DNA of 14,225 bases from Candidatus Aminicenantota bacterium (GTDB taxonomy: Bacteria; Acidobacteriota; Aminicenantia; Aminicenantales; UBA8522): NCBI GenBank assembly GCA_003524335.1, contig DQHV01000269.1, positions 1,500-15,724 of the forward strand, in the 5' to 3' direction. The translations under genes were made by a program, and so were the position numbers. Positions within the stretch are counted from its first letter, which is position 1; every line of letters starts with the position of its first letter. The notes beneath the pieces are model-generated. The model did not search any database and had not been told where the DNA came from. It saw only the letters and a program-made list of their open reading frames with translations. Positions 10,334 through 14,215 of this stretch are shown piece after piece.

Positions 10334-11899
10334 ATGGCCAGATTGTTCGAGTTTCAAAGCAAGAAGCTGCTCAAGCAGGGAGGGATACCGGTTCCCGCGG
10401 GCGATGTCGCCGCCACTCCGGAGGAAGCCCGGCGCATTGCCGAGAGAATCGGCAAGCCGGTGGTTATCAAGATCCAGGTCTGGGTGACCGGCCGGGCCGG
10501 GATCGGCGGGATCCAGTTTGCGGATACACCCGAGGAAGCGGAAGCCAAGGCCCGCCAGCTCCTGGGCATGAAGGTCAAAAACTTCGTCGTCGACCGCGTC
10601 CTGGTCGAGGAGAAGCTCGCGATCAAGGCCGAATACTTCGTCGGGCTGGTCATCGACGACGCCGCTAAGAAGCCCCTCCTCATCTTCAGTCCCGCCGGCG
10701 GCACCGGGATCGAGGAGATCGCCCGCCTCCATCCGGAGAAAATCGCCCGTCAAACCATCGACGTCCTCAAGGGGTTTCCCGAATTCGAAGCACGTAACAT
10801 GCTCATCCGGGTGGGGGTCGAGGGAACGATCCTGCCGAAGCTGGCCGACCTCCTGACCAAGCTCTATAAGGTGGCGCATTCGAGCGACGCCCGCTCGGCC
10901 GAGATTAACCCGCTGGTCTTGACCGCCGACGACAACATCTATGCCGCCGACTGCCACCTCGTTGTCGACGACTACGCCGTTTACCGCCATCCCGATTTCG
11001 GGATCGAGATCGCCCGCGAGTTCGACCGGCCGCCGACCGAGCTCGAGAAGATCGCCTACCGGGTGGAGGAGAAAGATTACCGCGGCACTTTCTATTTCTT
11101 CCAGATGGTCGAGCAGACGGCCGGCAGTGAGAAATACATCGGGTTCAACGGCGCGGGCGGCGGCGGCTCGATGATGTCCATGGACGCGGTCCTCAACCGC
11201 GGGTTTAAGCTGGCCAACTACTGCGACACGAGCGGCAACCCGCCGGCGAGCAAGGTCTACCGGGCCGCCAAGGTCATCCTGTCCCAGCCGGGGATCAGGG
11301 GCTACTTTGCCTCGGGCTCTGGTGTCGCCAGCCAGGAACAATATCACTCGGCCCGCGGCCTGACCAAGGCGTTCTATGAAGAAAAGCTGGATATTCCTGC
11401 GGTCATCCGGTTGGGCGGGAATTTCGAGGAAAAGGCGATCGAGATCCTGCAGACATATCTCAAAGACATTCCCGGTGTTGTCGAGGGATATGGCCGGGAC
11501 GATTCCCCCGAGTTCTGCGCCCGCCGCCTCGAGGAACTGGTGGCTAAGAACGGCGGGAAGAGATATGAGATCAGGCCGTTCGGCGAGACGCCGGTCCCGC
11601 ACAAAGCCTATGTTTTCGAGACCGTCACGGGACGGATTTCTTTCGACCATTCGAAATGTCCCGGCTGCAATACCAAGGGCTGTGTGCCGGCGTGTGCGCC
11701 TAAAATCCTGAAGCTCGAGGACGGGAAGCCGGTCCTGGCCATAACGCCGGAGGAGGCCAAGAAGGGCAAGTGCACCGAATGCCTGGCCTGTGAGATCTTC
11801 TGCCGGTTTCACGAGCAGGATGCCATCGTCATCCTTCTCCCCATCCCCGGGCTCAAGGAATACAGGGAGAGGATCCTCGCCGCCAAGGCTCAAACCTGA
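10334..11899 (+). CDS. SucC-like ATP-grasp acyl-CoA synthetase subunit fused to a 2[4Fe-4S] ferredoxin domain
   Basis: A 521-residue protein. Residues about 1-230 are a succinyl-CoA synthetase beta-type ATP-grasp: an N-terminus like LFEFQSKKLLKQGGIPVP, ATP-site Lys46 in VVIKIQV, then GRAGIGG, EINPLV with Asn192 and, 14 residues on, Asp206. These two match the Mg ligands of E. coli SucC. Residues about 260-400 are the CoA-ligase domain (FNGAGGGGSM, CDTSGNPPASKVYRAAKVIL). Residues about 436-500 add an unusual ferredoxin domain with cysteines 442, 445, 450, 454 and 480, 483, 486, 490, enough for two [4Fe-4S] clusters; the first set has a 2-residue insertion (C-x2-C-x4-C-x3-C). Ordinary SucC is about 390 residues and lacks it. 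With the next two genes it could form citryl-CoA synthetase; other acids (malate, succinate) are not excluded. Redox coupling or control is inferred only. Confidence 0.88.
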   Translation: MARLFEFQSKKLLKQGGIPVPAGDVAATPEEARRIAERIGKPVVIKIQVWVTGRAGIGGIQFADTPEEAEAKARQLLGMKVKNFVVDRVLVEEKLAIKAEYFVGLVIDDAAKKPLLIFSPAGGTGIEEIARLHPEKIARQTIDVLKGFPEFEARNMLIRVGVEGTILPKLADLLTKLYKVAHSSDARSAEINPLVLTADDNIYAADCHLVVDDYAVYRHPDFGIEIAREFDRPPTELEKIAYRVEEKDYRGTFYFFQMVEQTAGSEKYIGFNGAGGGGSMMSMDAVLNRGFKLANYCDTSGNPPASKVYRAAKVILSQPGIRGYFASGSGVASQEQYHSARGLTKAFYEEKLDIPAVIRLGGNFEEKAIEILQTYLKDIPGVVEGYGRDDSPEFCARRLEELVAKNGGKRYEIRPFGETPVPHKAYVFETVTGRISFDHSKCPGCNTKGCVPACAPKILKLEDGKPVLAITPEEAKKGKCTECLACEIFCRFHEQDAIVILLPIPGLKEYRERILAAKAQT

Positions 11900-11948: not shown

Positions 11949-12845
11949 ATGGCCATCCTAGTGAATGAGCACTCGCGGGTTATCATCCAGGGCATCACCG
12001 GCCGCGAGGGCATGGTCCGGGCGCAGTTGATGAAGGACTATGGGACCAAGGTCGTCGCCGGCGTCACACCTGGGCGCGCCGGACAGGATGTCTACGGTGT
12101 GCCGGTCTATGATTCCGTGCTCCAGGCCTGGGAGAAGCAGGGTCCGCTGGATGTCAGCGTCATCTTTGTACCCGCCGCCCTGGTCAAGAATGCCGCCCTC
12201 GAGGCCATCGACGCAGGGATCAAGCTCCTCGTCATCGTGCCTGACCGGGTGCCCATCCACGACGTCCTGGAGATCGCCGCCCGGGCCGCCGAGAAGGGCG
12301 CGCGGTTCGTCGGGCCCAACACCCTCGGCTTGGTCAGCCCGGGCAAGGCCGTCCTGGGCATGATCGGCGGCCGGGCCGAACGAGCCCGGGAGTGGTTCAA
12401 ACCTGGGTCGATCGGTGTCAGCTCCCGGAGCGGCGGCATGACCTCGGCCATCTCCTATTACCTCACCAAGGCGGGCCTGGGCCTGAGCACCATCGTCCAT
12501 GTCGGCGGCGACGCCGTCATCGGGCTCTCCCATCCCGAGGTCATGGCGCTTTTCGAGGAGGACCCGGAGACCCGGATGGCCGTGATGTTTGGCGAGATCG
12601 GAACGACCCAGGAGGAGCGGGTGGCCGACCTCGTCGAAAGCGGCAAGTTCACCAAGCCGCTCGTCGCCTACATCGGCGGCAAAGCGGCTAAGTCGGGAAC
12701 GCGCTTCTCCCACGCCGGGGCCATCGTCGAAGGCTCGCGCGGCTCCTACGAGACCAAGGTGAAGAGGCTGCGTGAAGTCGGCGTCCATGTCGTCGACGCC
12801 ATCTCCGATATTCCCATAAAGGCCAAGGAAGTTCTGGGGACATAA
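11949..12845 (+). CDS. SucD-like CoA-binding acyl-CoA synthetase subunit with phospho-histidine
   Basis: A 298-residue partner of the preceding gene, homologous to the alpha subunit of succinyl-CoA synthetase and to the small citryl-CoA synthetase subunit. It has the CoA-binding Rossmann start (VIIQGITGREG, residues 11-21), FVGPNTLGLVSPG (120-132), GVSSRSGGMTSAISYYL (156-172), GGDAVIG (186-192), GEIGTTQEE (215-223) and the phosphorylated histidine His255 in RFSHAGAIVEG. These are the residues needed for ATP-dependent CoA thioester formation through phospho-His. The subunit is of normal length and adjacent to the ATP-grasp subunit, so the two should form one enzyme. The 49-nt spacer upstream is AT-rich, and no good Shine-Dalgarno site is seen close to the ATG; the assigned start fits the family N-terminus. 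Substrate identity depends on context; the following lyase favours citrate or a similar acid. Confidence 0.93.
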   Translation: MAILVNEHSRVIIQGITGREGMVRAQLMKDYGTKVVAGVTPGRAGQDVYGVPVYDSVLQAWEKQGPLDVSVIFVPAALVKNAALEAIDAGIKLLVIVPDRVPIHDVLEIAARAAEKGARFVGPNTLGLVSPGKAVLGMIGGRAERAREWFKPGSIGVSSRSGGMTSAISYYLTKAGLGLSTIVHVGGDAVIGLSHPEVMALFEEDPETRMAVMFGEIGTTQEERVADLVESGKFTKPLVAYIGGKAAKSGTRFSHAGAIVEGSRGSYETKVKRLREVGVHVVDAISDIPIKAKEVLGT

Positions 12846-12905: not shown

Positions 12906-13685
12906 ATGGCTGAAGATCTTCATTGGAAGACCGGAATTACCTCCGTGGAGCCGAACAAGGTGCGACTGCGCGGCTATCCCATCGACCAGTTAATGGGGAA
13001 GATCACCTTTTCCCAGGCGATCTACCTGGTCCTCAAGGGCGAGCTGCCTTCGCCCGCGGTCGGGAAGCTCCTGGATGCCATCTTTGTCTCATCCGTCGAC
13101 CACGGCGCCGGCCCGCCCTCGGTCCTCACCGCCCGCACCGTCGCCTCGACCGGGGCCGAACTCCATGCCGCCATCGCGGCCGGAGTCCTGGCCATCTCCC
13201 GGCTCCACGGCGGCGCGATCGAAGAAGGGATGAGGCTCTTCCAAGCGATCGCCCGCCGGGCCGAGGAGAAAAAGATCCCGGAAGAGGAAGCGTCCAAGGA
13301 GATCCTGGCCGAGATGAAGGCCAGGGGCGAGCGCGCCTCCGGGTTTGGCCACCGGGTCCACACCCAGGACCCGCGGACTGAAAAACTTTTCGCCATGGCC
13401 GAGGAGCTGAAGCTGGCCGGCCAGGCCGTGCGCATCGCCCGCGCCGTTGAAAAACTCTTCCGGGAGAGCGGCAAGCCGCTGCCGATCAACGTGGACGGCG
13501 CCATCGCCGCCCTGCTCTGCGACCTCGGCATCCCGGACGAAATCGGGAACGCCTTCTTCATCATCGCCCGCGTGCCGGGGCTCGTCGCCCACATCCAGGA
13601 GGAGAAGACGCGGATGAGACCGATGCGGAAAATCCACCCGTCCGATACCGAGTACGACGGGCCGGGAGAAAGGGAGATCCCATGA
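12906..13685 (+). CDS. Citryl-CoA lyase-like protein (short citrate synthase superfamily)
   Basis: A 259-residue citrate-synthase-fold protein, far shorter than citrate synthase (about 370-430) but of the size of the roughly 30 kDa citryl-CoA lyase known from Hydrogenobacter. The catalytic set is complete: His66 in SSVDHGAGP (equivalent to E. coli His229), His101 in SRLHGGAIEEG (His264), His149 in GFGHRVHTQDPR (His305) and Asp197 in INVDGAIAALLCDLG (Asp362). The long N-terminal domain of true citrate synthases is absent. With the synthetase genes upstream it would split citryl-CoA into acetyl-CoA and oxaloacetate, or a related tertiary hydroxyacyl-CoA. A good ribosome site (GGAGAGGA) precedes the ATG at 12906. 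The stop overlaps the HD gene by 4 nt (ATGA). A condensing (synthase) direction or another substrate is possible. Confidence 0.85.
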   Translation: MAEDLHWKTGITSVEPNKVRLRGYPIDQLMGKITFSQAIYLVLKGELPSPAVGKLLDAIFVSSVDHGAGPPSVLTARTVASTGAELHAAIAAGVLAISRLHGGAIEEGMRLFQAIARRAEEKKIPEEEASKEILAEMKARGERASGFGHRVHTQDPRTEKLFAMAEELKLAGQAVRIARAVEKLFRESGKPLPINVDGAIAALLCDLGIPDEIGNAFFIIARVPGLVAHIQEEKTRMRPMRKIHPSDTEYDGPGEREIP

Positions 13686-14215
13686 GAAAACAGCTGGAAA
13701 CACTGCTGCCCGAGCTCCGGCTCATCCAGGACCCCGAGCTCCGCGAGCAGACCATCAAGGTCTGGGTGGAAGCGATGAAGCGGGCCGGCTGGGGGATCAA
13801 GGATCTGGCCGAGATGCCCTTTACGCTCCTGATCAAGCACACGGAGGTCAACCTCATCACCCACACCCGGGCCGTCACCCTTTCGGCGCTGAAGATCGCC
13901 GAAGTCCTGATGGCGGAGTATCGGGAGAAGATCACGATTCATCGCGATCATCTCCTTTCCGGTGCTCTCCTCCATGATGTCGGCAAGCTCTTCGAGTACA
14001 AGCGGGAAGGCGGGAAATTTGTCAAGAGCCGGGAAGGCGAGCTGCTGCGGCATCCGATCTCGGGGGCGGCGTTTGCTTTTGCCCACGGACTGCCCCAGGA
14101 GGTCATCCACATCATCGCCGCCCATTCCAAGGAAGGCGACGGGTCGCGCCGGACGATCGAGGCCATCATCGTCAACCATGCCGACTTCGTCAACTTCGAC
14201 GTCCTTAAAGACTAG
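13682..14215 (+). CDS. HD-domain phosphohydrolase-like protein
   Basis: A 177-residue soluble protein. After a helical N-terminus (about 1-55) it contains a full HD metal site: His61 in THTRAV, His98-Asp99 in LLHDVGK, His124 in LLRHPISG, His148 in AAHSKEG and Asp168 in NHADF. HD proteins use two metal ions to hydrolyse phosphoesters, commonly nucleotides or cyclic nucleotides, and some act as dehydratases or oxygenases. The GYP extension of HD-GYP cyclic-di-GMP phosphodiesterases is not seen. Its start overlaps the lyase stop (ATGA), so it is translationally coupled to a metabolic enzyme and likely serves the same system, perhaps as a metabolite-repair or signalling hydrolase. The substrate is unknown. 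It ends 10 nt before the window edge; an ATG at 14220 may begin another gene but cannot be judged. Confidence 0.88.
   Translation: MRKQLETLLPELRLIQDPELREQTIKVWVEAMKRAGWGIKDLAEMPFTLLIKHTEVNLITHTRAVTLSALKIAEVLMAEYREKITIHRDHLLSGALLHDVGKLFEYKREGGKFVKSREGELLRHPISGAAFAFAHGLPQEVIHIIAAHSKEGDGSRRTIEAIIVNHADFVNFDVLKD

Follow-up and report, generated by a model that had tools for sequence, protein, structure and literature searches.

Organization of the locus

The window, that is, the whole stretch of 14,225 nucleotides analyzed here (contig DQHV01000269.1 of Candidatus Aminicenantota bacterium), encodes on its forward strand a protein of 521 aa (10334-11899, +), which we term SucC-Fd. It is read in a single uninterrupted frame and joins the SucC-fold beta subunit of an ATP-dependent acid-CoA ligase (body, residues 1-408) to a C-terminal ferredoxin domain. 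The body comprises an ATP-grasp domain (residues 4-195; 10343-10918, +; PF08442, 183.5 bits), in which K46, R54, E190, and N192 are nearly or fully invariant in the 360-row family comparison described below, and a CoA-ligase-fold domain (residues 255-408; 11096-11557, +), which bears the signatures GGGGS, SGNPP, and SGSGVASQEQ, scores above the cut-off of PF16114 (Citrate_bind), and includes an invariant cysteine, C395. The ferredoxin-fold domain (residues 431-502; 11624-11839, +) has two predicted [4Fe-4S] clusters. Its first cysteine set (11657-11695, +) consists of C442, C445, and C450, assigned to cluster I, and C454, assigned to cluster II; in the second (11771-11803, +), C480, C483, and C486 would belong to cluster II and C490 to cluster I. 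The initial annotation, made from the sequence alone, had described a SucC-type body fused to a ferredoxin-like domain with eight cysteines at exactly these positions, and both statements hold: the frame is open throughout, and the identical fusion lies on many independent contigs, which refutes an assembly or frame artefact and leaves that explanation a negligible probability.

Downstream on the same strand lies the gene of a SucD-like alpha subunit of 298 aa (11949-12845, +; PF02629 and PF00549), whose H255 (12711-12713), within an HAGAI motif, we take to be the phospho-histidine. It is followed by a citryl-CoA lyase-like protein of 259 aa with a citrate synthase fold (12906-13685, +), a member of NF004869 by score (277.2 bits versus a cut-off of 212), with H101, H149, and D197 as its presumed catalytic residues in HGG, GHR, and NVD motifs. 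Its best solved match is the citryl-CoA lyase of Hydrogenobacter thermophilus (6hxp, 199.5 bits; next match, 85), from which it differs in being paired with another type of ligase. The conserved block also includes an HD-domain protein of 177 aa (13682-14215, +; TIGR00277, 42.9 bits versus a cut-off of 27.6), which recurs from Aminicenantes to Chloroflexota, Zixibacteria, and COX1-bearing Acidobacteriota. Upstream, between 7505 and 10199, the window carries genes for sigma-factor-like and anti-sigma-like proteins (so named from the look of their sequences alone), a TPR protein, and small exported proteins, a set that is syntenic in many Aminicenantes loci. Rfam and tRNA scans of the window returned no hits.

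Distribution of the fusion

By record title, SucC-Fd occurs, among the best 80 of 146 confirmed places, in Aminicenantes, WOR-3, Hydrothermota, Deltaproteobacteria, Calditrichota, KSB1, Zixibacteria, Cloacimonetes, Marinimicrobia, Gemmatimonadetes, and Chloroflexota. When 40 genomes of its own order (own genome included) and 119 of another order were compared, the identities showed two peaks: an upper one, at 55% or more, made up of fusions (a few of them split by contig ends), and a lower one, at or below about 49%, made up of ordinary SucC and more distant ATP-grasp proteins aligned over the body only. The fusion was found in only 8 of the 119 genomes of the other order. SucC-Fd is a distinct, widespread family in which the fusion is the rule.

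Fold and cysteine conservation of the C-terminal domain

Fold comparison placed the tail in the ferredoxin fold, with the redox proteins FwdF, oxalate oxidoreductase, HgcB, and FixX among its neighbors; its sequence gave no significant match to solved structures (best E 0.034). Similar fold scores were obtained for ABCE1 and archaeal RNA polymerase subunit D, proteins unrelated to SucC-Fd that likewise carry an Fe-S ferredoxin fold on a non-redox machine. In both, the ferredoxin domain has a non-redox role and is not known to relay electrons. FixX, suggested by a resemblance as the parent of the tail, was not adopted, 7koe_D (EtfABCX) being just rank 26 among similar scores. In 297 genomes of the phylum, the tail gave 20 matches of at least 85 bits, 19 of them within frames of 510-749 aa and the remaining one in a 167-aa frame near a contig start (G147); the next match reached 33 bits, and no separate parent ferredoxin was found in these genomes.

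The eight cysteines were followed in 360 rows (359 database proteins and the window protein), of which 357 are complete at all eight positions. The pattern CCCCCCCC is present in 257 of the 360, 96 read xxxCCCCx, three xxxCCCCC, and one xCxCCCCx, and three are gapped; the possibility raised in the initial annotation, that homologues lack the cysteines as a rule, therefore fails for the family at large. In the 96 rows, exactly 442, 445, 450, and 490 are gone and 454, 480, 483, and 486 are retained, and none of the 357 complete rows has lost any of the latter four. The sole loss of a cluster II ligand that was seen, C483 to Ser in the SucC-Fd frame of locus L023, lies outside the 357-row set and is possibly a sequencing error. 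The spacing of the eight cysteines is kept in all 120 nearest homologues, in 118 of 119 further homologues retrieved with a Syntrophobacteraceae query (the miss, of 408 aa, stops before the domain), and in 80 of 82 fusion frames in the fetched loci, where the exceptions are L023 and L078, the latter cut by a contig end. When 64 rows that are 56-78% identical to the window protein were aligned, all eight proved invariant, together with C395. This ninth cysteine (11516-11518) belongs to the final helix of the SucC body and is found in 360 of 360 rows, one-cluster forms included.

Forms with some of the cysteines missing came to light in the phylum scan in two Acidobacteriota genomes, G326 and G360. 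A search from one of them yielded 120 proteins, three of them named Pyrinomonadaceae, and 118 of these are complete at the eight positions. The full set of cysteines is present in 18 of the 118 (one a Pyrinomonas sp. record), whereas 96 are without 442, 445, 450, and 490 and 4 have just one of these, so that cluster I is lost in 100 of 118; all 118 keep 454, 480, 483, and 486. In 2[4Fe-4S] ferredoxins, the first motif supplies three ligands to cluster I, whose fourth is the last cysteine of the second motif; for cluster II, the arrangement is reversed. The joint loss of the cysteines points to the same interleaved ligation in the SucC-Fd domain, L023 being the exception. Since the loss matches interleaved two-cluster ligation, with I lost and II kept, the cysteines very probably are ligands that hold clusters. 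Together with the fold and the two cysteine sets, this cluster-wise loss bears out the ferredoxin nature proposed for the tail.

A tree of 38 rows was built on the body without the tail, with ordinary SucC serving as the outgroup. The 14 one-cluster rows included in it group as a single clade (100/100), whose sister is a two-cluster row (96/94). As the one-cluster rows are a single clade within the two-cluster forms, one loss event suffices; an earlier tree with fewer two-cluster relatives had placed two one-cluster rows at the base. Judged by its ligands, cluster I is dispensable in this clade, and cluster II is kept there. The loss amounts to a natural experiment on the importance of each cluster, and it opens the role of the domain to direct testing. 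It bears, for instance, on a purely structural explanation, in which the clusters would do no more than stabilize the fold, as they do in ABCE1 or archaeal RNA polymerase subunit D, and SucD, the lyase-like protein, or the HD protein would use the domain as a scaffold. We regard this as fairly improbable, because the absence of any cluster II ligand loss in the 357 rows is stricter than a plain fold-holder requires.

Strong COX1 matches (481 bits or more) were obtained in 7 of 7 one-cluster hosts tested, including G434, which retains C490. Among 28 other hosts, three had matches of similar strength (G492, G262, and G377), five had weaker ones of 195-217 bits (G000 among them), and 20 had no match; the presence of both clusters was checked residue by residue for the window, G105, G174, G262, G377, and G492 and assigned by profile match for the remaining hosts. 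Cluster loss goes with COX1-bearing hosts, but COX1 or aerobic life does not force it, since G262, G377, and G492 have strong COX1 and yet keep both clusters.

Gene neighborhood and co-occurrence

Around SucC-Fd in 80 named loci, some of them cut by contig ends, SucD was found within two genes in 74, the lyase-like gene in 57, and the HD gene in 51. The initial annotation had proposed a survey of frequency and neighboring genes; the fusion recurs across many phyla, with SucD, lyase, and HD as its usual companions. Of 142 class genomes, 56 contain the tail and 57 a close lyase; the two occur together in 55, 3 have one without the other, and 84 lack both. In the seven genomes of family f11, SucC-Fd and the lyase are on different contigs and yet co-occur, so the association of ligase and lyase there is not mere adjacency.

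In f11 loci, a class II aldolase-fold gene instead of the lyase comes after SucD. Such a protein was seen after SucC-Fd and SucD in L060, L062, L064, L072, and L114, from another Aminicenantes-related group, one genome of which has the lyase on another contig beside S-adenosylhomocysteine hydrolase (L113). In two genomes of the sister family f6 (L096 and L097), a similar locus retains SppA, TPR, LeuC1, LeuB, TsaB, and RimI, and SucC-Fd, SucD, lyase, HD, and LeuC2/LeuD2 are absent from it, as if lost together. G073, also filed in f6, has a lyase 100% identical to that of the window and possibly contains cross-binned contigs.

After the block, Aminicenantes loci continue with LeuC/LeuD-like genes, a recurring LeuB/IDH-like dehydrogenase gene, and then a second LeuC/LeuD-like set. 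LeuC2D2 was rejected as an obligate partner, given four f8 genomes with a close LeuC2 and without SucC-Fd. The LeuCD/LeuB-like genes might belong to leucine or homocitrate synthesis, but an HMGL-like synthase was not found in 8 of 12 genomes, where a LeuA-type start is unlikely. On the window's own contig, the LeuB/IDH-like protein downstream (L095:5522-6637) aligns to an isocitrate dehydrogenase, its best solved match, except at residues 143-171, and may have an insert near the substrate side; just past the window, a run of N marking a scaffold gap (L095, about 2430-2465) truncates the start of the downstream LeuC-like gene. The two Acidobacteriota genomes of the one-cluster group have other arrangements, with lyase, HD, MmgE/PrpD, LeuC, LeuD, SucC-Fd, and SucD grouped together in G326, and lyase, HD, MmgE/PrpD, and SucC-Fd in G360.

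Pfam hits, with some inference, indicate that in four deltaproteobacterial-type loci (L075, L079, L080, and L082) the block is preceded by fumarate reductase-like subunit and fumarase-like genes, and in L080 also by 2-oxoacid:ferredoxin oxidoreductase-type subunits. The upstream genes in L088, a Chloroflexota locus, include an EtfA-ferredoxin fusion and one for a flavin/Fe-S protein resembling HdrA. The fumarate reductase, fumarase, and 2-oxoacid oxidoreductase context would also suit succinate as a substrate, or electron transfer, in which a working 2[4Fe-4S] ferredoxin would take electrons from, or pass them to, a 2-oxoacid:ferredoxin oxidoreductase or ETF system, with the ligase docked beside it and acetyl-CoA or succinyl-CoA channelled at once. 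Besides the genes upstream in L080 and L088, electron transfer would fit the retention of all eight cysteines in the two-cluster majority, the redox proteins among the fold neighbors, and the 20 of 28 other hosts with no COX1 match. We still consider it unlikely as the general role, considering that about 100 sequences of one clade are without cluster I and keep cluster II, that the ligation chemistry has no redox step, and that no flavin- or ferredoxin-type oxidoreductase was recognized among the genes recurring around the block in Aminicenantes, genes seen at a single locus being mostly unannotated. Members that keep both clusters may still act as a relay, most plausibly at loci with redox genes nearby.

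Type of ligase and probable substrate

The window protein misses the cut-offs of the SucC families (NF001913, 252.3 versus 370 bits; TIGR01016, 248.7 versus 375.55) and passes that of Citrate_bind (28.1 versus 26.8), with Ligase_CoA not listed. Citrate_bind was matched by 64 of 64 family rows at E<=0.01 and Ligase_CoA, weakly, by 2 of 64, whereas two ordinary SucC of the same order reach 108-111 bits with Ligase_CoA and give no hit to Citrate_bind at E<=0.001. At this threshold, two members of the one-cluster group match neither family. In addition to these scores, SucC-Fd differs from SucC, such as that of Thermus aquaticus (3ufx), in having the ferredoxin domain and in its substrate loops GGGGS, SGNPP, and SGSGVASQEQ, which show almost no variation among 64 rows drawn from roughly twelve phyla. 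Since the loops hardly vary across phyla, one substrate type is likely.

Overall similarity gives a different picture, the whole protein being nearer to the Thermus succinyl-CoA synthetase (SCS, 257 bits) than to the Hydrogenobacter citryl-CoA synthetase (CCS, 141), and SucD likewise; for the ligase domain alone, the two are nearly tied (59.6 versus 56.2). The R-L-G-G-N motif of SucC-Fd is also SCS-like. With the H. thermophilus CCS (CcsA/CcsB, 6hxq), SucC-Fd has in common the GGGGS and GNPPA loops and a PPTE...RG segment; the identity is 30%, the match is confined to the body (query 4-379), and the RR pair is incomplete, as R359 is kept and the following residue, its second arginine in CCS, is Leu, Ile, or Val in 64 rows. 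The counterpart of this second arginine in human ATP-citrate lyase binds citrate, and the invariant R341 might replace it. Citrate is our best guess for the substrate, with 2-methylcitrate as the main alternative.

Two papers describe the H. thermophilus CCS as two subunits working with a citryl-CoA lyase (PMC5459899, PMC9802188). SucC-Fd likewise occurs with a lyase, by adjacency and co-occurrence, and their joint operation is putative. If ligase and lyase cooperate, the net reaction would be that of ATP-citrate lyase, an enzyme to which the Citrate_bind match also points. ATP-citrate lyase unites the ligase and lyase modules in one enzyme; here they are encoded by separate genes and spread over three proteins, which may nonetheless form a complex, and an Fe-S domain is added. 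The match to the Chlorobium subunit is 105 bits.

Ordinary SucC is found elsewhere in the same and related genomes, as are a full-length citrate synthase (11 of 12 genomes) and an AcnA-type aconitase (12 of 12, partial in G000), and the block is therefore an extra, parallel node. This redundancy would also fit a ligase acting on 2-methylcitrate, citramalate, or succinate, and a lyase-like protein acting on the matching thioester, with the Fe-S role left open. The presence of MmgE/PrpD within the block in two genomes of the one-cluster group, with bacterial-type LeuC/LeuD in one of them, the two LeuCD-type dehydratases and the LeuB/IDH-like enzyme after the Aminicenantes block, and the SCS-like R-L-G-G-N motif agree with such a substrate. 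However, the nearest solved relative of the lyase-like protein is by far citryl-CoA lyase, the GGGGS and GNPP motifs are common to citryl-CoA synthetase, and the window protein matches Citrate_bind; we therefore see another acid as a serious but rather unlikely option.

Possible role of the iron-sulfur domain

Whether citrate is cleaved or formed decides between the reverse and the forward TCA cycle. At least one large genome survey scores the citrate step via ATP-citrate lyase or the Hydrogenobacter-type CCS/CCL (PMC9802188). SucC-Fd could escape such surveys, as it falls below the SucC cut-offs, is often labelled succinyl-CoA synthetase, and accompanies a citryl-CoA lyase-like gene. The accessible portions of PMC5459899, PMC9802188, and PMC9560492 describe the known citrate-cleaving routes alone, and no description of a SucC-ferredoxin fusion was found in an open-access library that lacks most subscription journals. 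The parts are known; no earlier account of how they are combined, of how widely the fusion occurs, or of the loss by cluster was found there.

The explanation we favor, tentatively and at somewhat less than an even chance, is a citryl-CoA-synthetase-like ligase/lyase citrate node in which the Fe-S domain would be a control or assembly module rather than an electron relay. SucC-Fd would be the beta subunit, with SucD, of an ATP-dependent CoA ligase that makes or uses a citryl-CoA-type thioester (acid + CoA + ATP <=> acyl-CoA + ADP + Pi). ATP, CoA, and the acid would react on SucC-Fd/SucD via the phospho-histidine H255 of SucD, by analogy, and the lyase-like protein would catalyze citryl-CoA <=> acetyl-CoA + oxaloacetate; electron transfer occurs in none of these steps. 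The two steps together would give a near-reversible citrate node, and we infer its direction as conditionally as its substrate. The ancestral ferredoxin fold would hold two [4Fe-4S] clusters outside the chemistry, and the domain would exert control, or serve assembly, depending on its Fe-S or redox state, by holding or gating the ligase or by docking a partner; cluster II would be essential, and cluster I an accessory that was lost in one lineage.

Control or assembly is favored over an obligatory relay because cluster I is lost whole with cluster II kept and no flavin- or ferredoxin-type oxidoreductase was recognized among the genes that recur in the Aminicenantes block. The initial annotation had concluded that the fusion implies redox coupling, redox control, or docking to an oxidoreductase. 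Of these, control or docking fits somewhat better, as a prediction, and a two-cluster wire is not needed in every member, since one clade is without cluster I and no recurring flavin/ferredoxin oxidoreductase was recognized in Aminicenantes. In favor of our explanation are the segregation of the cysteines by cluster, the single one-cluster clade with its COX1-bearing hosts, the co-occurrence with the lyase, the Citrate_bind matches, and the steady substrate loops. Several observations speak against it, namely, the score nearer to SCS, the missing arginine, the two one-cluster members without Citrate_bind, L023, the fumarate reductase-like and fumarase-like genes before the block in four deltaproteobacterial-type loci, and the hosts with strong COX1 that keep both clusters.

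In a more specific and quite improbable version, the citrate node would be switched by redox state, the clusters sensing the state of ferredoxin or oxygen and setting citrate cleavage, at the cost of ATP, against synthesis, with ATP regained. If this were true, a relative of ATP-citrate lyase under Fe-S control would exist in many phyla, most of the tested hosts being without strong COX1, and Acidobacteriota that bear COX1 would have a reduced form of it with a single cluster.
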